A stretch of DNA of 64,000 nucleotides, taken from Hydra vulgaris (Eukaryota > Cnidaria > Hydrozoa > Anthoathecata > Hydridae). The stretch is from assembly GCF_038396675.1 (NCBI RefSeq), contig NC_088920.1, positions 64,412,001-64,476,000 on the forward strand. Direction: 5' to 3'. Position numbers and translations under genes: made by a program. Under the pieces are notes generated by a model. It had not been told where the DNA came from. It saw nothing but the letters and a program-made list of their open reading frames with translations, and did no database searches. Below, one piece after another: positions 13,657 through 62,220 of this stretch (positions are counted from its first letter, which is position 1; each line of letters starts with the position of its first letter).

Positions 13657-15240
13657 ATAAAAAATTTGTTTTTATAAATACTTTAAATTAATATCTACCA
13701 TAAATAGATAAAAATTATATTATATATAAAATTAAGAAAAATAAGCAAACCAAATACGGTGATACTTGGCTATTCTATTTGGCTCATGAACATGAACTTT
13801 TACAGGATTTTTTAATTTTTCAGAAATGACACTTTCTGGCATTGTTCAAAAATCTTAAAATGCACAAAAGTTATGACCATGGAAAATTTAAAATGGTGAG
13901 GAAAGAAAAAATTTTGCAACTTTAGAAAGTTACAAGATTTTTTAATGAAGTTTAAAACCTGTTGATGAGTTTAAATTTAGAATAAAATAATTGTGTGGAA
14001 AATATACTCATTGCCATCACGTTTTATGGTCAAACGTTTTAAAATATTTTTGTAAAGCATAAGCATACTAAGATATTTTTGCAAAGCATAAGCGTTTGGA
14101 GTTAGCAGCTGAAAAGTTTGGAAAATTGCGACCTGAAAATTATCTTATGTTTTGACTTTTTGAGCAATTGATAGCATTATGTGTCCAAAATGTTTTTCTA
14201 TTGTATTGAAGCCTAAGTTATAAGTAAAAAAGGAGCGAAGAAAACATAAGTTATAAAATAGTATATAAAGTTTTGTGTTTTTTATTCATTTTCCTCTCAA
14301 AACTGAAAAAAAGATAGAATAAGATAATTCTAGCCTCGCGAAATGGCTGCGAGTGTCATATATAAAGCATCAAAAAATCTTGCGGCCGTCCAAGCACATA
14401 TGACAAATATTTTGCGCATGCCATAAATTCACTTGAAGAATGTTTTTATAGTATTCAAAAAGATAATTAATTTAGCTTCCTGCACATTACGTGTTCGACA
14501 TTTTCCTTTTGTCGTTACCGAATTTTCTTCATTGGTTTAGCATTTGAACCACCTTTCTTTAATTTTCTATTCTTACTGTTTTTTAATTTCTTTATAATCG
14601 TTACTATTTTTTAATTACTTATTCTTTTATTGAAACTCTTTAAAAAAATTATACATATTTTGAATTTTTCAGTTACAACGCACACGCCGATTGCAAAGAT
14701 TTCACGAGCTCGTTTGGTACTTCAAAAATTTTAAAAAATTAAGTATATTTTTGCAAGTGCTTACTCGAGACTCGAAAAAGCCCGTGGTTTAAATCCCTTT
14801 TTCGAGCCGAAAAGCGGAAGCGATAAATCTTTTTATTATAAACCATAGTCAACCATAAAATCTTTTTAGAGTTAAAATAAAAAAAATTGAGCTTTCCAAA
14901 AGCTCTCTTGTTTATTTATAAATTTTTTTAAGGATACTTTCCAATAAAAGTAATTATGCAAACTTGTATTATACTACAGTAGCGGTACACGAAAAAGTTA
15001 AAGATAAATTATAGTTTTAAAATAAATTTAAATTTTACCCGATTAAACTTACTTTTTCAACAAACAAAAAAATTGAATTTCAAAACAAGTACTCAATTAA
15101 ATGTTTTCTTCATTAAAGAAAATTTAAATTGTTTAAATACATTTCCAGAGTGGCTTAAACATCTGTACTAATAACACACAAAAAACATCTGTCTATTTTA
15201 ATGTTCGTCACGTTAATTGTTCAAACAGACTTAGTTTACA
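13657..15240. other. Intergenic, no gene recognised
   Basis: AT-rich spacer. A direct repeat of about 30 bp containing GCAAAGCATAAGCRT occurs at about 14052-14095. Around 14680-14830 base composition is more balanced (CGAGCTCG, CTCGAGACTCGAAAAAGCCC), but I see no long reading frame or RNA gene. Confidence 0.4.
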
Positions 15241-16296: not shown

Positions 16297-17460
16297 TTAC
16301 TGCGTTGCAGTGTTGGACGAAATAGAGTATGTTGGTGTATTAACTCTTCTACTTTGGTGATCATCTGAAATATTTCGTGTTGTACCCTCACGAGTTTGTT
16401 CACGTTTCACATTTCCATGAGGTTGTTCTAATATAGTCATTGTTGCATATGGTATTTTTGGATCATATGTTAGGTTACAATTATGATCAACAGCAGTTGG
16501 ATAAATACCAATCGGGTAATAAACACTTGGTGCAATTGTTGAACGAACAGCATCATGATGCATTGATAAATGACTAGTTGCTTTTTCTGTAGATACAGTG
16601 ATAGATGATGTGTCTGGTTTAAGTGTTAAAGCATGTGAATAAGGCTGCCCACTATATGTACCCATAGCAGCACCATTAAGATATGGAAATCCTAACGGAC
16701 TATACATGTAAGTTGGAGTACCTGAATGTACAACACTGTATTGGGCAGATAAACCAGTTGCAGCTGTTACTGAGGAACTTGACGAAGAAGATAATTGTGA
16801 TTGTGATATAGTACTGGTCACTGCAATGGCTGCTCCATGTGGAAAGCCATAGACAGCTGATGGCGATGTATTACTTGCATATGCTTCATGTCCATTTACT
16901 AGTGCAGATAAATAGCCATTAAAGGGGTAATTAATACCTCCTGTTATTGCATAACCAGAAGTGTACTGTGTGGGCATGAAAATTTGTTTCCCATCAGTTG
17001 TTATTACATGAGGCATCTTCTGTTCATTCTTTTTTGATGAAGTCTTAGCTTTACGACGTGGTCTATACTTGTAATCAGGATGTGATTTCATATGTTCAGC
17101 TCTTAAACGCTTTGCTTCAAAAACAAAAGGAGCCTTTTCATCTTCAGTTAAAACTTTCCACTCGGCTCCCAAGCGTTTGCTTATTTCACTGTTATGCATT
17201 TTAGGATTTTCATGTGCGAGTCTTCGTCGCTTCTCGCGAGACCACACCATGAAAGAATTCATCGGTCTTTTGACCTTATCAAAATCTTCTTGTTTAGAAG
17301 TTTCATGATCGGAAACAAGAGAATTAGATACACGATTTGATAGGTTTAAATTTTGTGGAACAAGCATGGATTGCGAAGTGTTGTAACCTACAACTTGCTT
17401 AAAATGAGCATCATTATTGGCGTCAGAGGGATGTTGAATAACATTAATTGCAGTGGCCAT
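16297..17460 (-). CDS. SoxB: SOX group B HMG-box transcription factor
   Basis: An uninterrupted 387-residue protein in one exon. The HMG box spans about residues 62-131 ([12 protein letters not shown] through [11 protein letters not shown]). The segment [17 protein letters not shown] and the RPRRKAKT tail are group B hallmarks, rather than the E/F-type PDLHNAELSK. The box binds the ACAAT-type site in the minor groove and bends DNA, so the protein acts in the nucleus, typically in stem or neural cell fate in animals. The basic RPRRK stretch is the usual nuclear localisation signal. Residues about 219-232 are a Ser run. The remaining C-terminal half is Tyr/Ser/Thr/Pro-rich and probably the transactivation domain. 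VKRE (351-354) fits a SUMO consensus. The start is the first ATG after an in-frame TAA five codons upstream (17473-17475), with G at +4. It could be a close paralogue within group B. Confidence 0.95.
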
Positions 17461-18100
17461 AACCGCAAAAAATTAAAAGCGTAAACTATTCCAAAATAAT
17501 TCAATGTAAAAAATTAAAATTAATAGTCGCGCTGTTAAGTTGTTTTTTGAAATATATGGTTTATTGTTTTTAAATTTTATTATTTAGTTACAACTCCAAC
17601 CTCGTGGTTTAATTTTCGGTTGGTTTACGAGTTCCAAGAACTTCTCCGATTTCTTTTAAAGCCACTTCTATAAATCTCTTGTTCGGTACCAGTTATAACA
17701 AAGTAAAACAACAACGACAATAATTTCTGAATGAAAAGACGAATAATAGTCACCTATTCAGAATCCGTTTCCAAAGCACGACATGCACATTGCTTTCGTA
17801 TCAAATATTGTGTATGGGATTTATTGTCTTTGAGTAATTAAACACGCTTGATTGACAGCTAAATCCCCAATCAAAATTAAGTTCAGGCAACCTCAACCGC
17901 GTTCTCTTCGTAAGTTTTCTAAAGAAGAATAAGTACTATATGTCGAATGCTAATATAAAAAAAACTGTCGAGCAGTTGTTTTGATTAAAGCAGATTATTA
18001 AGTTAAACTATTAAAGCACGCGCTTATCGCTCTCCATTGCAGATATTAAAAAAAAATTTTCTGGCTGTATAAGTTTTACTACTTTAACGAAAAAACATAA
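17461..18100 (-). promoter_or_regulatory. Upstream / 5' UTR and promoter-proximal DNA of the SOX gene
   Basis: Base composition is less AT-rich here than in the surrounding spacer, and no transposon ends are seen. TGATTGACAG at 17849-17858 exactly matches the PBX-PREP/MEIS (TALE homeodomain) composite site. TAATTA (17835-17840) is a homeodomain core, and ATTGTGT/ACAAT-type SOX-like sites lie nearby. Promoter function is inferred from position only. Confidence 0.45.
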
Positions 18101-28999: not shown

Positions 29000-30487
29000 C
29001 TCGTATTTTCTTAAATTTATTGACGTGATTGTTGAGGATATGGACTTCGAGTAACATTATGCATCTGAACTAACTCCAAATAGTTTTGAGCCTTACGATT
29101 AATCACGAAACCAATAACAACTGCATAAAAGCTGTTTCTTAACCTTTTTAAACCTTTTTGAGACAATTTCCATACAAGTCATTAAAATTAAGATAAGATA
29201 ATATCGAGAAGACTTGCAACTTTCAAATTTTGCACATTGTAGTTTTATGGTCTCATTAGGATACTCTCGCTTAAAGTAACTGATTTTTCTAAAAAAAAGT
29301 TTAAACTGCTGATGCCTACTACTAGGCAAGGCAATACCATGCCTCAAAATACAGACCATACCTTCATCTGGTTGAAAGTTTATTATACTTATCAATTTAT
29401 GATAAATTAATTAACGAACTTCTACTTAACTATTAAAAAAATTATCTTTATGATCTTACCTAAAATAACTATAAATCTTTAACCAAAAGGTTTTTTAATT
29501 TAATTTGTTTCTTTCAATGCAGCTGCCCGTTTTAAGCTTGATAAACAAGCAAGTCTCTCAAACTTGACAAGTTTGAGATACTTGCTTCAAACAGTTTTTT
29601 TGCAGTTGTTGTTGGCTTGATTGATCTGTCGGTTGTCGCATTTTGCGGGATTTGAATTTGAAAGCAAATTTCATGCATTACCTCATACAGGATGTACTAC
29701 ATATATTTCTACAGTGTACTGTAAATAAATATCCAATAGTTTTTTTGTTTTTTTTTGCTAATTGGCTTTAAATTTAATACTTAGGAATATAAAATTTTTT
29801 ACAAAGTTTAGTTTACTCTAAAAGTAGTAAAAAGTGTTTTGTTATCGAAATTAAATTTTAAACTTTTTTTTAATTACTCTTTTTCTTTTGGTCTTATATT
29901 AATATTTAATATAAATTTAAATAATAATATTTACGCTAATATAAATTTAAATATTAATATTTACACAAATATAAATTGTTCTGATATCTCATTAATAAGA
30001 GAAGTCTAGAGCAAAAAAATAATATACACTGTCTATTTACAAACTCTTCTATTAATACCAAACTCTGAATTTTTCAAGTTTTGTCCGGGCTAACTCTACA
30101 TTATTAGTGTAGTCTGTTTTGAGAACACTAGTAGGAAATATATTCTTAAAAATTTTGTTTAAAATGCTAATCATGTTTAAGCTAATCATGTTTACGCAGA
30201 TATTTAAAAAAAGCTGTACAAGAGTTTGTTTTGTTTTTTTACTTTATTAGGAGTACATTTTTTTTGCATAAGAAATACACGTTTTTTTTTGTTTTTTCGT
30301 TTTATCGCGTAATGTTATCGTTTAACTTTATCACATTTAAGATGTCATAAAAATAGATTAAAAAAAAAATTTTAACTTTAAATAAAATTTTGTTAATGAA
30401 CAAATATTTCTAATGTTCTCATTAAATAATAGTCTTTTTGTTTTGTTTATTTTTTTTTATACATGTTTATTTTAAATAACTACAAAG
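29000..30487. other. Intergenic, no gene recognised
   Basis: AT-rich. CAAGT, TCTCAAACTTG and CAAGTTTGAGA, ACTTG form a hairpin at about 29552-29586. No gene or transposon end is recognised. Confidence 0.4.
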
Positions 30488-30745
30488 CAGGGGAGGCGCC
30501 AGCATTTTTTGGTCTTCGAGATATCTAACTTCCAGACATGGAGCAAACTCCAAACATTTATATGTTTATACTTATGTCGAATAAGGATGCTTTGCAAAAA
30601 ATTGCGATGATTGGACCCTGGGATCAAAAAAGCAATAAAATTTCACCCCCTGCCCCCATGCCCCAAACGTGAGAGCAACAAGTTGATAAAATATTTTTTG
30701 TACTATTTTCAACTAGACCTATATTTATCGAGAAATTTTAAGTTT
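30488..30745. mobile_element. Fragment related to the subterminal region of the 31.6-kb element
   Basis: The segment with TTCGAGATATCTAACTTCCA ... GGATGCTTTGCAAAAAATTG ... CCCCTGCCCCCATG parallels 31800-32000 (AGATAGGTAGCTAATAAGCA ... GGATGACTTGCAAAAAATTA ... CCGCCCCGATCCC). It is probably a decayed relative or MITE of the CACGGTG-ended element. No end can be fixed. Confidence 0.45.
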
Positions 30746-30749
30746 AAAT

Positions 30750-31045
30750 ACAACATAACAATGTGAACGTAAAAAATAATCCGAGAAATATATCTCTAAA
30801 TTCTTCCAATTAAAATAAAAAAATACAATAAATAAAAATGAATCTGATAATTTTTGAAGGTGTTATAAGATGTTTACCTATTGTTTATTTACCAAGTTCC
30901 AAAATAATGTTTGTGTATAAATATGATAAAAACGAAATTTGTATAAATTTGATAAAAAGAATTATTGATCTGTAGTTATAGGAAGCTCGCAGATGACTGT
31001 AGTCAGTCTTGTCATCAAGTACCATTTTTCCAGACGTGTAATACA
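30750..31045 (-). repeat. Dispersed repeat with tail hairpin (copy A)
   Basis: About 295 bp, clearly homologous and colinear with 51499-51800. Both contain AATCCGAGAAATATATCTCT, AAATATGATAAAAACGAAAT and GTCTTGTCATCRAGTACC. On the minus strand GACTG-ACTA-CAGTC forms the hairpin. The family is unnamed by me; it shares only the hairpin core with the tRNA-SINEs. Confidence 0.75.
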
Positions 31046-31186: not shown

Positions 31187-32101
31187 TTATTTTAATCGAT
31201 TTCTATTAAAAGTTAAGTTATATTTATATTTAAACTTTAATTAGAATTTAAAGAAATTTCTTAAAGTTGTTTAATTTAATTATTGTAGATTTTAGCTTTA
31301 TTTTCAGAGAGTGTTTGTTGTTGAAATTTATTAGCGTTTCTGGAAATTATTTTGTTAAATAAATAGGGACCACGATATGTAATTGAGAATTTTGAGAATC
31401 TTGTTGTTTCAAATGGTATCTTAAAGTTGCCTGTTGCTCTTGTATTGTATTTATTTATTTTGTTTTTATAAAAGTGTGCTGTAAAATGTTTTGAAACCAG
31501 ACTTTATATTTACTTTCCATGTTTATATTTAAACATGGAAAGAATATTTTGATAAATATTTATTTGAAATATATTTAGTGCGTTTATTTGTTCTAGTAAG
31601 GGTCTAGCCTGAGTAAATTTGTTTTTGTTGTACTCTAGTCTTCACGGTGCATAGGAACATACTCTAAGACCTTGCAACACATCCCCAGAGATTTTATTTT
31701 TGATTATCATTAGAAAACATTTCCTCATTCAAAAAATGTAAACGACAACTTTTTTTAGTGGGGGCCTGGGGAGAAAACACACATTTTAGGGCAGTGCCCA
31801 GGAATTTTGTTGTTCAAGATAGGTAGCTAATAAGCATGGGGCATACTCAAATTTTTAGTATGTTGATACTGGTAGCAAATGAGGATGACTTGCAAAAAAT
31901 TAAGGTAATTGAATCTAAACCAACCCCGCCCCGATCCCTAACTGCCCCCTTCCTAGAACTACGTCTCCTTTATTCGTAAATTTTTTTTTTTTGTTCTATC
32001 ATAAAGTAGATCAAAATTCATCGACAGATTTCAAATTTCATCAAAAAATCTCTTTTCGTTTAAGATTTATAACAATGCAAAGCCTAAAATTACCCCCTGA
32101 A

Positions 32102-32250
32102 ATAACCTTAAATGGTCTCAACTTTTAAACGAAAAATTTTTTTTTGATGTAATTTGAAATCTGTCGATGAACTTTGATCTAGTTTAATATAAAACAAGCA
32201 AAAAGTTGAAAAGTGTTTTTTGGAACCATACCCTAGGGGGGATTTGGGGA
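32102..32250. repeat. Subterminal inverted repeat, left arm
   Basis: AATAACCTTAAATGGTCTCA ... TGGAACCATACCCTAGGG is the reverse complement of 35360-35505 with very few differences. The left arm lies about 430 bp further inside than the right arm. The inserted 31665-32095 carries a partial inverted copy of the same sequence (AAAATTCATCGACAGATTTC, about 32013). Confidence 0.85.
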
Positions 32251-32663
32251 ATCTTCTCGAACACCACAAAATCATGCCCATGCCCCATATTTAGATTTTC
32301 AGAAATATTTGTGATAGATTTATCAATTTTTTTTTAAAAGTTTTTAAAAATTTTTGCTTAACATTAAAATTTACAGACGGATAAGTAATTTTTATTACTT
32401 TCTATTTACATTTTTATTGAAATAAAAACAAAGCAAAGCAACCTTTAATTATTAACAATTAGTAAAAGTTAGCAGTTGCTAATTGTTAACAGTTGCATAA
32501 TAACTCTTTGAACGCGTTGATATACAAACTGAAAGCATGTTTTTAGCCATTATATTGACATGTGTTTATACGCATTATATTGACATTTGATTGATATAAC
32601 CGATATATCATGCCAATATTATCAATCCATATCAGAAGTTTTTATTTGAAGCATTCATTTAAA

Positions 32664-35183
32664 ATGCCTAAACATGCAAAAGAACATAGTGATTTTGTAA
32701 AAAAATTGTGCATTTGCTGCTTCAGGAAAGGCACGGATTTAAGACCAATAAATAACCCTGAAACAACTTATTTAAATCTAAATAAAAAGAAAAATGACTA
32801 CTCAAACCTTATCAAAACTATATTCTGGAAAGATTATTCAGCGGATAATCCTGACCTTCCTACCATGCTTTGCTCAAAATGTAGAAAAAAGCTTGCAGGG
32901 ACTGATCCTTACTTCATTATGCGGCCGTGTTATGAAGGTAATTATAACTATATTGATGTTTAATTTACTTCATTTAAAATTTAGTTTCGCTATTTTAGTT
33001 ATTATAGTTGTCATACAAGTGCTATAAAATTTAGACCTGAATACCAGAGTTATTAGAGGGAAAAAATGTGAATGTTTTATTTGTGAATATGGGCGCAAAT
33101 CAAAAATGGAAAAAATATTGGCCCCAACGGTTGATTGTGTTTCGGGAAAGCTTGTTTATCAAGGCGCTGAAGATGTTTCAAATAAACCTGCAGAAAGACT
33201 AGTTTGTCAACATTGTTATGCCCGAGTGGGACAGGGAATTCCACATCCCTGTACGAAATTAGAAAGACAAAAGAATTTGACTGCCATTGTAAAATCAACA
33301 TCCCCAACAACGCAAGGAAAAGTTCTGTCCAGCTTTATCAAAGATTTCAGCACAAATGACTCAGAGAACACCTTAGTTTTGAAAACCTTTGGTCCGAAGC
33401 AACTCACTGTCTCTTTCGGAAAGACTGAGGTTAATAAACCTTTCTTTTCTTTAGATAAATTGAACAAACTTCAATTAAAACTACATTTCAGGTAAATTTT
33501 TGTTGCTTAAAAATACTTTTAAAAATAAATTTGTTATGAGTTTAAAGCCAATTTTTGTAATAACTTTATTATGATTTATAAGTAATCGCAACATGATTGA
33601 AGTTGCACGATTTCTGAGAAGTGAGGCAGGACGAAAAAGTGTGGAATCCGGTTTCAATATTAAACTGATTGAGAACAACGAAATAATTGGAAATTTATTC
33701 AATTGTGATAAACTCCGATTGCTATTAAAATTAAAAGAAAGCGAAGAGGTAAGTAAACTATTTCCAAAAAAATTGTTTTATAACTAGATTGCAATTTGTA
33801 TTATTCATTTTGATTTTTTATGAATGTATAGTTGGTAGAAAAAGATACTCCTATTGTGTATTGCAATGACATTGAAGAACTCGTAGCAATGGTACTTCAT
33901 CACAGAAGTCAAGAAACAAATGATGTTGATATCAAATTAGGTGTAGATGGAGGGCAGGAATTCCTAAAAGTTACACTGTCAATAACCCTAAAACCAGAGT
34001 TAAAAAATAATAAAATTCCAGAGAAACTGAGCAAGAGTGACGGATATGCGTGCAAACATTTTAAAGATTCAAGCGTCCACAAAACTATTATATTGGCCAT
34101 TTTGCCTTCATTGAACGAAAAATACCATAACTTGCGGGTAATATTGGATAAGCTAAACATTTCATCCTTAGATTACACAGTATCTGAAGATCTAAAGATT
34201 TTGCTTCAAATGGTTGGAAAACAAACTGCAACATCAAAACACCCTTGTCCGTATTGCATGACGTCATCTCCTGACTTTCAAAAAGCTGATCATTATACTC
34301 TAGAGTCTTTGTGTACATTGTACGACCAATGGATGGCTGATGGTGCAAATTTAAAAAAAGCTAAAAAATACACTAATGTTGTTAACTCCCCTTTATTAAC
34401 AGGCAACAAAAACAAAAAAATACTAGAACTTGTAAATATTCCTGGACTACATATACTGCTAGGTGTTGTAGACAAAATTTTAAAAGAGATTGAAAAAAAT
34501 TTATTTGAAAACAAGGAGTGTGGGTTACAGTTTGTTAATCAATATCTGTCTAAAATAAACATCTGCAGAGTGTCCTACCAAGGGCAGCACCGTTTGGAAG
34601 GCAATGCTTGTCATAAATTGCTTAAAAACATAGACAGCTTTGAACTGTTTTTTCAAGAGTTTAGTCTTGGAGTTTCCGCTGCCAAATATATTAAGGTACT
34701 TAGAGATTTTGAAAAAATAGTCCATGGTTGTTTTGGAAAATCATTAAGCTCCACGTATGTTAAAGATCTAGAGGAGTTCTCTACGAGCTATAAAAATCTA
34801 AGGGCTACAATTCCTTTGAAGGTACACATAATTGAGCAACATGTTATTGAATTTATCAACATGAAAGGTGGAGTCTTTGGTATGATAAATAACTTTTAAA
34901 TTTGATTAAAAATAATTTATAATTTTAGTAATTAAATACTCTATTTCAACAGTTGAATCGTAAAATTTGCATAATTTACGACGAATATTTATTAAATAAA
35001 CTTGCATTTCTTTTGCACTTCTACTGTTCTATAGGCTTAGGTTACTGGACTGAACAAGCTCTCGAATCCATTCATCAGGATTTCAATCAGTTTTGGCGAA
35101 TGAGAAAAGTTGGAGAGCACAGCCCAAACTATATTGAGGCGCTGAAAAACGCGGTTGTTGCTTACAACTACAAGCACTTTTAA
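32664..35183 (+). CDS. CMC/Chapaev-like transposase with RAG1-type N-terminal zinc pattern, five exons
   Basis: Spliced exons: 32664-32937, 33035-33491, 33583-33748, 33832-34879, 35035-35183. All four introns (82-155 bp) start GT and end AG, with phases 1, 2, 0 and 1. The sum is 2094 nt, 697 codons plus TAA, with no internal stop. N-terminus: C16-x-C-C, then a DYSNLIKTIFWKDYSADNPD segment, C70-x2-C73, and C103-x-C-x2-C108. This order resembles the zinc-binding region of RAG1. A further cluster follows: C149-x2-C152, with PHPC ending at C164. Catalytic core candidates: D338 in LGVDGGQEFL, D419 in TVSEDLKILL, and E655 or E659 in GLGYWTEQALESIHQDF. A C438PYC441 pair and H631/H636 lie between. 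An alternative upstream ATG at 32610 adds 18 residues. It should cut and paste the element in the nucleus. Family placement rests on motif memory; the gene structure is read directly. Confidence 0.85.
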
Positions 35184-35359
35184 AGTAGCTTTCTATTTGC
35201 AGGAATGTAGTTTTAAAAAGTAAAGTGTTAAATCTCCTATGAACAAACTTTTAGTATGACTTTGAAATGTAAAATATCAATCATAATGTAAGCATAAAAA
35301 TCAAAGTTTTTTTTTTTACTGTAATAAATAATTGTAGCAAACCCTTCTCGACCCCTTAT

Positions 35360-35505
35360 AGCCCTCCCCAGGGTATGGTTCCAAAAAACACTTTTCAACT
35401 TTTTGCTTGTTTTATATTAAACTAGATCAAAGTTCATCGACAGATTTCAAATTACATCAAAAAAAAATTTTTCGTTTAAAAGTTGAGACCATTTAAGGTT
35501 ATTTC
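35360..35505. repeat. Subterminal inverted repeat, right arm
   Basis: Partner of 32102-32250. From here the sequence runs almost directly into the right terminal repeat at 35510-35531. Confidence 0.85.
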
Positions 35506-35535
35506 CTATGAGTATGTTCCTATGCACCGTGTCTT

Positions 35536-36595
35536 GAAGCGTGTTTTTGACGTAAGTAAGTGTTTCTAATTTAGGTTTGTGGGTACACCCCATGCTATAT
35601 TGGCATACATAAGATAGCTATTTATGAAAGAAAAGTGAACCATTGAGCTTCTTTTAGTGAAAATTTGAGGAGAGTTTCGTTCACAGATTCCAATCATAGC
35701 AATCTTTTTCTCAGAATTCTCTTTTGTCATAATTATAAACAATTGAAGCTTAATCCATGCCTGAAGGTTAGCTATCTAAAACACAAAATTTACGCGAGCG
35801 CACGCGCGTGTGTATTAGGTTCCTGCATTACAAAGTTTTAATATCGAATCAAATTTCGAATCAAGTCACTATGATACATAAGAAAAGATGCTTAACTATT
35901 TTTTAAATTACATTTTGTCGTGTGGTTCAATTACTTTATAAAGGAAAAAAGAAACTACCGTAAGTTCAAGTACACTCCCTAATGAAAAAATATCAGACGA
36001 GAAAAGTACACTACAATGAAAACCATAATACCTTGTGCAGTTATAACCTAAATTTTAAAAATATTCTACCCGTACCTAAAAATTCAAAATGAATTAAACA
36101 AGCATGCGCAGAATTTTTAGTATTCAAAATAGATAACTTCCGAAAAACGTACTCGTCTTAAATTTTGAATACTAATGACATATATCGTTTTAGAAAAAAT
36201 TGCTACGATCGGAACATGAAAACAATATTAAACCTTAAATTTGGTTCTTTCTATTCCTATTAGGGTTTCTATCAAAAAAGTTTTTTTTCAGAATATAATA
36301 AAATAGTTCAAAATTAATATATTAAACTTTAATAGATTAAACAAAATTAACAGATTTAAGCTTTTATTGAGAAATCTCTTTTTGTTAAAAAGTTAAAAAT
36401 TATCTTCAAATCTTACGGATTAACTTTCATTTATAATTTTAATTTACAAAGTAATTTTTTTAAACATTATCTTCTTATGTGACTGTTTTTATCTTTAAGT
36501 TATATATGTAAATTTTATATATTATATTTTAAATACAATATTATATATTTATTTGAAAATTAGAATTTTTAGGTATTATATTTTGGATTTTTGTG
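35536..36595. other. Intergenic, no gene recognised
   Basis: Repeats only. GGTACACCCCATGCTATATT ... ATAGCTATTTATGAAAGAAA at about 35580-35645 has a weaker relative at about 55630-55690. A short run of CGCGAGCGCACGCGCGTGTG lies near 35794-35813. Confidence 0.4.
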
Positions 36596-46996: not shown

Positions 46997-47309
46997 TGAT
47001 AAAATTGTTACAAAGGTAATCACTTAAAAAACAAAACCGTTTACAAGATAATGTTAAAATGTGTAGCTTATAATACAAAAAAATTTTTACAAACTGGTAT
47101 CCAACTTTTAAATGCTCCAATTATCACAATTATTTGCAAAGCATTTTTATTTGACATAAGTATAAACAAATGAATACTTAGAGTTTGCACCAGCGGGTAT
47201 AAGACGTATTTTAGATGTTTACGATTCATATTAATAGGTTATTAATTAATATTTTAATACATTTTATACTCAAACACCGAAAAATGCAGGGGAAATTCTA
47301 AGAATAAAA

Positions 47310-58985: not shown

Positions 58986-61900
58986 ACAATAAAAGAAAAA
59001 TCCTGGCCGGTGCAAGAAGAAGACAGGTTGTCTTATCACAGAGCTCCGTCACACAAAAATTTACATGCACAATAAATGATAAAAGACAAAAAGACAGTAT
59101 AAATACAAAAAAAAAAACAAATCAAATACTTCAGCAATAAAATAATTTGTTGCTAACGATCTTCCAGCAGAATAATTTTAAAAATAAAAAAGTAAAAACG
59201 ACAGAAAATCATGAAAGTTATAAAAACACAAAAAAAAATGCGTTGTTTAATTAAAAAAAAAAGCAATATATGTAAACATAAGTATTTGGGCTGATTATTT
59301 AATATCATCAAAAATATGAACGAAAAAGACAATTTTATTTTCGTTATCTTTTCTACTAATGGTTAGAAACCATTTTAATAAAAGCTAAAGAAAGTGATAA
59401 AGATTTAATTTATTTTCAAGCGATTCAGTCTAAACCTTTAAATTGTTTTCAAAAAAGGTATTTGAAATCTAATATATCGAATTCCATGTTCAGTAAATAC
59501 CGTTTTGAATCATCCTTAAAAATTTGCAAAGTGCAGTTTAAAACGAAGTTTTGTTTTTTACTGAAGATTGAAAGAAATTTTTTCCAAACTAAAGGTCCCC
59601 GATATTGAATTTGGTACGAACTTAATTTAAGAAGGTTTATGGGAACCACAAAGTTATTCAGTGAAAATTAGGTTGGATATTTATGGGAGATTTCATCAAA
59701 GTAGGATTGAAATATTACTGGAGAAAACCCAAGTTTTGCTTTAAACATAAATAACATAACTTGATGAATATTTAGCTTATAAATATTTAAAGCTCCAAGC
59801 TGATGTAAGAGAGGTTTGCATTATGTTTTTCTATTTGCCCCAAATACTATCCTGCAAGCATGTTTTTGTTTACTATAAATTTTTTTTAGTTTAGTGTGAT
59901 TAGTGCTACCCCAGGAAATGTTACAGTATGAAAGATAACTGTGTATAAACGAAAAATAAAATTTTTTTAAAGACTCGTTATTAAGAAAAGGTTTTGTTCG
60001 GTATAACATGGCAATATTTTTTGAGATCTTACCTTCAATATATTTAATATGAAATTTCCATGACAATTTTTCATCTAAGAGCACTCCCAGAAAGTTTGTA
60101 GTCAATTCCCTTTTAATTATTTTATCATTGATTAAAAGATTGGGTAGTTTAAGAGGAATATTCTCGGCTTTACTAGGTTTATGGAATAGGATAAATTTTG
60201 TTTTCTCTACATTTAATGATTGTCGGTTACTTCTAAACCACTCGTTGATCTTATCTAATTCTTCGTTAAATATTTTAAAAAGAACAGTAATATCTTTGTG
60301 AGAATAAAACAAATTAGTGTCATCTGCAAATAAGATAGTATTTAATACTTTTGATGATAAATATAAGTCATTTATATAAAGTAAGAACAATAATGGTCCC
60401 AAAATAGAACCTTGGGGTACTCCACAAGTTATTAAGTTGTTTTTTGAGTCTTTTGTTTCTTTAAGTACAAACTGCTTTCTGTTAGTTAAGTATGATCTAA
60501 ACCAAAGTAAACTTTGATTTTTAACACCATAGTTTTCTAATTTTTTCAAAAAAATTTCATGATTTACTGTTTCGAAAGCTTTGGATAAATTAATAAAAAC
60601 CCCTATTGTATAGCAATCACTATTAAATCCATTTGATATATGCTTAACTTATTCAATTATTGCATGGTTAGTAGAATGATTTTTTTTAAAACCGTATTGA
60701 TTTTTATATAAAATCTTATTTTCAGATATTTATAAAGTCTGTTGTACATAATGCGTTCAATTAGTTTAGAAAAGCAGGGTAAGACTGAGATTGGTCTGTA
60801 GTTTGAAATATTGGTCTCATCGCCAGATTTGAAAATAGGTGTTATTTTTGCAATTTTTAGTTTATCTGGAATATGACCCGATTTAAGGGAGAGATTAAAA
60901 ATATGGAATAATGAGGGTTGGATAATATCAAAAACAGATTTAATTACATTAACATTAATTTGATCTATACCTGCACTTTTATTTTTTTTCAGACTATTAA
61001 AAGCAGTATGTAGTTCACTTTTGGTTAAAATCGGTTCTTCCATAATTAAATCAGTTATTGCAAGATATGAATCAATTTTTTTTTGACCAACTGGAATTTT
61101 CGCTGCTAGGTTTGGGCCAACATCAAGAAAAAAATTGTTTAATTTCTCAATAATAACTTCTTTATGATAAGTCATTTTTCCCTCAATAATAAGTTTTTGC
61201 GGTAAGTTATTTTTTTCAATTTTATTTTTCCCAATTAAGTCTCTAATAACACTCCATGTTTTTTGAGGGTTTCCTTTGTTTTTTTCAAGCAGTTTAGCAT
61301 AGTAATTTACTTTTGATCGTTTTTTAGTTTTTTCAAATAAACTTTTATAATTTTTGTAATTAGTTTCATTTTTATAAGTTTTATTTTTTAAATATTTATC
61401 ATAAAACTTTTGTTTTTTCCTTGATGATTTTAGTAGGCCTTTGGTCATCCATGGGGATACAACCGACTTTGAGTTTATTACTTTCACTTTTAAAGGAAAA
61501 ATGTGCAATGCCTTATCATACATTTTAGAAAATTGGTTTAGAAATAAATCAAAAGCATTATTTACATCGTGTGATTGCAGTACAAGATTCCAATCGACGT
61601 AATTATTTAATAAATTTTTAAATTGGCATATGGAACTTTCATTGATTAGTCTCATGAATACTGTTGATTTGTGGGTAGCATTATTTAGAGTAACGCTCTC
61701 AGTAATAAGGAATATAGGAAAATGATCGGTTAAATCAGTCTTGATTATACCAGTTTTAAAACGGCTATTATGAAAATTGTTAGTTATAACATTATCTAAT
61801 AATGTCGATGATATTTTAGTTACTCTTGTTGCTTTGTTTATAGTTGGGATAAGGTTGTATTCGAGAAGAATATCAATAAAAGTTTTTGCTTCACTATTTA

Positions 61901-62220
61901 AGGCTTTTAATGGTTGAGTAAGTCAATGTTGATATCCCCAACTACGTAAACATGCTTTTGCAATATATTTTTTGTGTTTAGGAATGTGCGCAGATAAGTT
62001 TTGAATGTTTTTAAACTACTAGCTGGTGTTTTATAAATAGCATTAATTATAAAATTATTAGCTAATTTATTTATTATCTCAACGCATAATGCCTCACAAT
62101 CTGTATTGTTTACATTAAGATCTTTACGCTGAATAAAATCAATAGAATTGTGAACGTATATGATCTATTCATAGTGACAATTTCTTGTCTTTTTAAAGAA
62201 ACATTGACATGTTTAGCGTC
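58986..62220 (-). mobile_element. CR1/L2-type LINE, long decayed copy
   Basis: Minus-strand order is 3' part of the endonuclease (about 62165-61660), RT (61655-59821), C-terminal region (59815-59449), a UTR of about 400 bp, and a 3' hairpin at about 59050-59000 (GATAAGACAACCTGTCTTCT). The 5' end is missing: the endonuclease begins in mid-domain, as in a 5'-truncated insertion. Protein and 3' end match the plus-strand LINEs at 11.9 and 63.1 kb. Confidence 0.85.
59449..62165 (-). pseudogene. LINE ORF2 (endonuclease-RT), broken
   Basis: Endonuclease C-terminal part: HVYVVGDINIDLLNH, frameshift near 61918, then LLDNVITNNFHNS and LTDHFPIFLI. RT fingers (61655-60657): KKNKSAGIDQINVNVIKSVF, then SNYRPISVLPCFSKLIERIM. 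A frameshift near 60710 and a TAA near 60637 follow. RT palm: motif A reads VFINLSKAFETV, so the first catalytic Asp is Asn (codon at 60589-60591). Motifs further on are intact: GVPQGSILGPLLFLLYINDL and FADD. Another frameshift near 59825, a stop near 59675, then QIQYRGPLVWKKFLS to the end. It would nick DNA and prime reverse transcription; this copy is dead. Confidence 0.85.

Follow-up and report, generated by a model that had tools for sequence, protein, structure and literature searches.

The 64,000-nucleotide stretch of the Hydra vulgaris genome considered here (the window; NC_088920.1, positions 64,412,001 to 64,476,000, 28% G+C) contains a structurally complete and apparently autonomous cut-and-paste transposon, which very probably belongs to the CMC/Transib/RAG1 clade and is best filed as Chapaev-like. 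The element is flanked by a target-site duplication, ends in perfect inverted repeats and carries a gene for a predicted transposase with the acidic, cysteine and histidine residues of the clade; that it is autonomous is suggested by its sequence. It is a well-preserved element of a known kind and not a new type. As one defined unit with complete ends, a duplication and a full reading frame, it offers a transposase that could be assayed directly. Transposons of this clade are the presumed ancestors of RAG1, the enzyme by which our antibody genes are assembled.

Ends and Target-Site Duplication

The first-pass annotation of the window had reported identical 22-bp ends of the CACGGTG type and TCTT direct repeats, and both are borne out, as the ends form a perfect inverted pair and the repeats lie directly outside them (Table 1). 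The span then proposed, 31639..35535, describes a real element but takes in both duplications, the element proper being 31643-35531. The duplication is 4 bp and not 5 bp long, the flanks reading GTCTT on the left and TCTTG on the right. Base composition predicts about 2e-5 perfect 22-bp inverted pairs by chance per 3.9 kb, and about 2e-7 if matching 4-bp flanks are included; the end, searched as an 18-base piece with up to three mismatches allowed, occurs at two sites in the whole window (0.01 expected), namely the two termini. With so few pairs expected and no further copy of the end piece in the window, the inverted ends cannot reasonably be put down to chance. The 22-bp end has no exact match in viral contigs.

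A long subterminal inverted pair, likewise noticed earlier, is present with 143-nt arms that are 99% complementary, though it is placed asymmetrically, 4 bp inside the right end and 434 bp inside the left end, and in pairwise alignment its near-perfect identity breaks off sharply. Pieces of the left subterminal region recur in the window as a diverged copy at 30489-30821 and, more weakly, at 13935-13972, 29470-29507, 36350-36398 and 47118-47192, hence part of this region is a dispersed repeat. The asymmetry can be read in two ways, either through insertion of a dispersed repeat into the left end or through a recent rebuilding of the right end from the left one. Under either reading the present form integrated as a unit, because the present ends are directly flanked by the duplication.

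The Predicted Transposase Gene

The predicted gene has the five spliceable exons described in the first-pass annotation, with four GT-AG introns in phases 1, 2, 0 and 1 and an open joined frame of 697 codons plus stop. The exon 1/2 junction matches the Hydra vulgaris gene model P0018 (YEGLNTRVIRG against YEDLNTRVIRG), the exon 2/3 junction matches P0001, and the exon 4/5 junction is read through unbroken by P0001, P0015, P0016, P0017 and others, while P0002 and P0004 continue beyond the end of exon 4 into other residues, like the unspliced frame of the window. The exon 3/4 junction is the least supported and sits in a poorly conserved stretch. At the C-terminus, AYNYKHF matches P0015, P0016 and P0017.

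Table 1. Coordinates of the element and of its predicted gene within the window.
Feature	Position	Strand	Remarks
Whole element	31643..35531	+	3,889 bp; inverted ends and flanking duplication
Left target-site duplication	31639..31642	n/a	TCTT
Right target-site duplication	35532..35535	n/a	TCTT
Left terminal inverted repeat	31643..31664	+	22 bp; CACGGTGCATAGGAACATACTC
Right terminal inverted repeat	35510..35531	-	22 bp; exact reverse complement of left
Left stretch resembling a diverged repeat elsewhere in the window	31788..32136	n/a	Repeat at 30489-30821
Older copy of subterminal repeat	31984..32068	-	84% complementary, facing 32120-32204
Left arm of subterminal inverted pair	32099..32241	+	143 nt; 99% complementary
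Right arm of subterminal inverted pair	35363..35505	-	143 nt
Exon 1 (predicted)	32664..32937	+	Start, agreeing with P0018; N-terminal C-x2-C / C-x2-C zinc motif
Exon 2 (predicted)	33035..33491	+	CECFIC and VCQHC..HPC zinc motifs
Exon 3 (predicted)	33583..33748	+	
Exon 4 (predicted)	33832..34879	+	D338, E395, D419, C438/C441, H506, H631/H636
Exon 5 (predicted)	35035..35183	+	Probable catalytic E659, C-terminus, stop

Relatives of the Transposase

Among relatives with a name, the nearest is a Hydra vulgaris protein annotated as uncharacterized (56% identity over 71%), which is the best match among the direct relatives LOC124812537, LOC124811278 and LOC124812416; these are partial gene models, and P0001 and P0018 have unrelated C-terminal residues. 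Much closer in sequence is an open reading frame (ORF) in a JGI record, P0004, which encodes the exon 4 ORF at 98.9% identity over 355 residues, and another three ORFs reach 85-87% identity. When nine diverged members served as queries in a wider search, 159 proteins were returned, of which 120 were listed; among the matches listed are named proteins of Psylliodes, Brassicogethes, Leptopilina and Eretmocerus. Pattern matches were found in viral contigs (62) and in bacterial or archaeal genomes (21), none of them confirmed as a relative.

Several alignments were used, namely 24 rows taken from 25 matches (P0025, 22% identical, was left out), A3 with 9 of the 25 matches, A4 for the zinc N-terminus with 39 of 144 proteins, and an 82-row set drawn from the same 144, consisting of 72 proteins of 640-830 aa and 10 chosen shorter ones. 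A tree of 37 rows (36 of the 144 proteins and the window protein) pairs the window protein with the P0004 ORF (99/98), and all difference between the two lies on the window branch.

P0001, P0005, P0018 and P0038 (LOC124812537, LOC124811278, LOC124812416 and an insect 'ZAD domain-containing protein') are of the same family and look mis-annotated. Certain proteins of Hydra and of insects that carry the label uncharacterized or ZAD-like thus belong to a RAG1-fold transposase family.

Active Site and Relationship to RAG1 and Transib

In the 82-row set, the candidate active-site residues are nearly invariant, namely D338 (79/79), E395 (79/80) and D419 (80/80), followed by C438 and C441 (79/80 each), H506 (81/82), H631 (81/81), H636 (79/81) and E659 (75/75). 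The last of these upholds the final catalytic glutamate block that had been claimed for the last exon, and as the neighboring E655 is less conserved (68/77), E659 is likely the catalytic glutamate. In the predicted protein, the C(2)C motif reads CPYC, the LH motif GLHI and the H(4)H motif HIIEQH. These three acids, two cysteines and three histidines are the residue set given for the CMCT clade, which comprises EnSpm, Mirage, Chapaev, Transib and RAG1 in the available text of PMC12730594. Among the traits of the clade, the DDE residues, C(2)C, H(4)H between the second D and the E (H(3-4)H in the definition of the clade), and a further histidine are present, as are the RAG1/Transib fold (in a relative's model), 5'-CA..TG-3' termini and a 4-bp duplication, within the 2-5 bp range.

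The spacing of D419 to C438, C441 and H506 (19, 22 and 87) equals that of RAG1 D708 to C727, C730 and H795. HHalign of the family against mouse RAG1 pairs D708, C727/C730, H795, NGNFARKL, H937/H942 and the E962 block, all in order, while D338 and E395 were equated with RAG1 D600 and E662 by conservation and order and not by the HHalign path. The structural model of a 56%-identical relative was matched with VIA-align, and the first 35 of the 50 matches listed are RAG1, RAG1L or HzTransib, the RAG1/RAG1L structural alignments having 12-16% identity. A sequence search of PDB with the single protein returned no chain at E up to 10, and a 24-row profile returned two chains only, at chance level. 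Links to RAG1 and Transib from sequence only thus failed, and the placement in the CMC/Transib/RAG1 group, which held when tested, rests on the fold matches together with the conserved DDE, C(2)C, LH and H(4)H residues.

In front of the core, the motifs C-x2-C, C-x2-C, CxCxxC, C-x2-C and HxC are shared family-wide. An N-terminal zinc domain, Chapa, is described as common to Chapaev and RAG1 in the accessible part of PMC4411706, and 71-78 N-terminal columns of the family align in order with the RAG1 N-terminus, with a score matched by 0-3 of 100 shuffles; the likeness to a Chapa domain is suggestive only. Part of the N-terminus also resembles zf-AD, below the zf-AD cut-off. The Pfam and structure searches proposed alongside the first-pass annotation gave these results: no Pfam family reached its cut-off in the window protein or in 10 relatives (zf-AD and others all fell below it), and a scan of the 24 rows gave scattered matches, each in a single member only, and the relative's model matches RAG1/Transib structures.

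Probable Assignment to Chapaev

The element is filed with Chapaev because its ends (CAC), its duplication of 4 bp and its motifs agree with the description in the available portion of PMC4079192, with which the earlier naming of CAC termini and 4-bp duplications as Chapaev traits is consistent. Chapaev as described there and in the accessible text of PMC4411706 shares 5'-CAC...GTG-3' termini, the 4-bp duplication, DDE, C(2)C, LH and H(4)H residues and a zinc-rich N-terminus. The 3- to 4-bp duplication of Chapaev is represented by TCTT, seen at one insertion. Chapaev3 elements (Merrow, Garfield, Conan) are alike in their CAC ends and in the C(2)C, LH and H(4)H motifs; however, in the descriptions available they duplicate TWA (3 bp), hence identity with Chapaev3 was rejected. 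The Merrow transposase is there given as 556 aa from two exons, in contrast to the predicted 697 aa from five exons here. No RAG2-like partner, a convergent gene that marks RAGL elements, was seen in the element, where the longest minus-strand ORF has 98 aa and these ORFs were not scanned against families.

RAG and Transib transposases nick at the CAC, cleave with hairpin formation and join the ends to the target in a staggered manner. By analogy, the spliced transposase would attach to the 22-bp CACGGTG ends, perhaps aided by the N-terminal zinc fingers and the subterminal repeats. Cleavage at the CAC boundary, by nicks that leave hairpins on the flanks, would be the work of an RNase-H-fold DDE site (D338, D419 and E659, with E395 and H506 nearby). 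The freed ends would then be joined to a new target at positions staggered by 4 bases, producing the TCTT duplication.

Alternative Readings and Mobility

Several observations weigh against the assignment. The alignment with a single RAG1 core sequence by HHalign is colinear yet not significant (p 0.056), its score is matched by 0/40 full and 2/40 local shuffles, and with a larger family set the score is lower (p 0.15). The fold evidence comes from a predicted model of the 56%-identical relative and not of the window protein itself, the comparison with Chapaev is one of described traits rather than of reference Chapaev proteins in a tree, and the gene model is drawn from splice signals and relatives' proteins rather than from RNA. 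The layout of the two ends is unequal. The window protein departs from 5 of the 77 columns with 90% or higher conservation in the 82-row set (F11, V12, F20, F283 and T305), keeping the other 72, and it differs from the near-identical P0004 ORF at four residues (G342E, D375H, L402V and R620K).

These four differences, all on the window branch, bear on the strongest alternative, in which the copy is complete in outline but has been inactivated by point changes, having once been moved by a better copy. G342E lies four residues after D338, which would suit such a loss, but glutamate at this position is also found in 3/82 other relatives, and the window protein keeps all 36 columns with 90% or higher conservation across 24 relatives, as well as all 43 that do not vary among the 16 closest. 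We give a dead copy somewhat less than an even chance. Conversely, the element is possibly still mobile. In the part of PMC12220107 available, the putatively active elements of Hydra include CMC-EnSpm and CMC-Transib, and expression of CMC-Chapaev-3 is cell-population-specific; an intact copy is therefore plausible and not surprising.

Less likely is a separate lineage within the clade, outside both Chapaev and Transib, that is common to cnidarians and insects and still without a Pfam model. The failure of every Pfam family to reach its cut-off would fit such a lineage, as would the 159 relatives, since none of the names shown among the 120 listed says transposase and one reads ZAD domain-containing; however, Pfam is without models for many transposases, and all end and motif traits tested are those given for Chapaev in the available text of PMC4079192 and PMC12730594, so that this reading is rather doubtful. 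Similarly tentative is the broader idea of a large cnidarian and insect RAG1-fold lineage without a Pfam model that links Chapaev and RAG1 through a RAG1-type zinc N-terminus and core combined with 4-bp duplications; were it true, the copy in the window would lend itself as a candidate active element.

It is improbable that the element is a true Transib or RAGL transposon, equal in fold and chemistry but exceptional in duplicating 4 bp, even though the relative's model has its best structural matches in HzTransib and RAG1 and the fold cannot separate the two groups, no solved Chapaev structure being among the matches listed. RAGL transposons nearly always duplicate 5 bp, as happens in RAG/Transib transposition, according to the accessible text of PMC7204232, and this reading was rejected on the 4 bp found here, in which the element differs from HzTransib and from RAG1 core/RAG1L (ProtoRAG) alike. 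Moreover, Transib transposases are described, in the portion of PMC4411706 available, as having no extra N-terminal domains, in contrast to the several conserved zinc motifs before the core here. That the gene is a host gene domesticated from a transposase, as the annotation of related Hydra vulgaris proteins as ordinary uncharacterized genes could suggest, was rejected as most improbable, given the intact ends and target duplication around it and the other, diverged ORFs of the same family.

Other Features of the Window

The first-pass remark that all other elements in the window are broken or empty was spot-checked on seven long ORFs, which yielded one hAT dimerisation domain, one reverse transcriptase and one HMG box, with four ORFs giving no match. 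The first belongs to two adjacent ORFs in different frames on the minus strand (1554-2658), the first of which carries the hAT domain, and which look like a broken hAT transposase. The second lies in one of two adjacent minus-strand ORFs at 59821-61922 that look like a broken retroelement. The HMG box (E 1.2e-25) is encoded by a single long minus-strand ORF of 391 aa at 16297-17472, which looks like a Sox-type gene.
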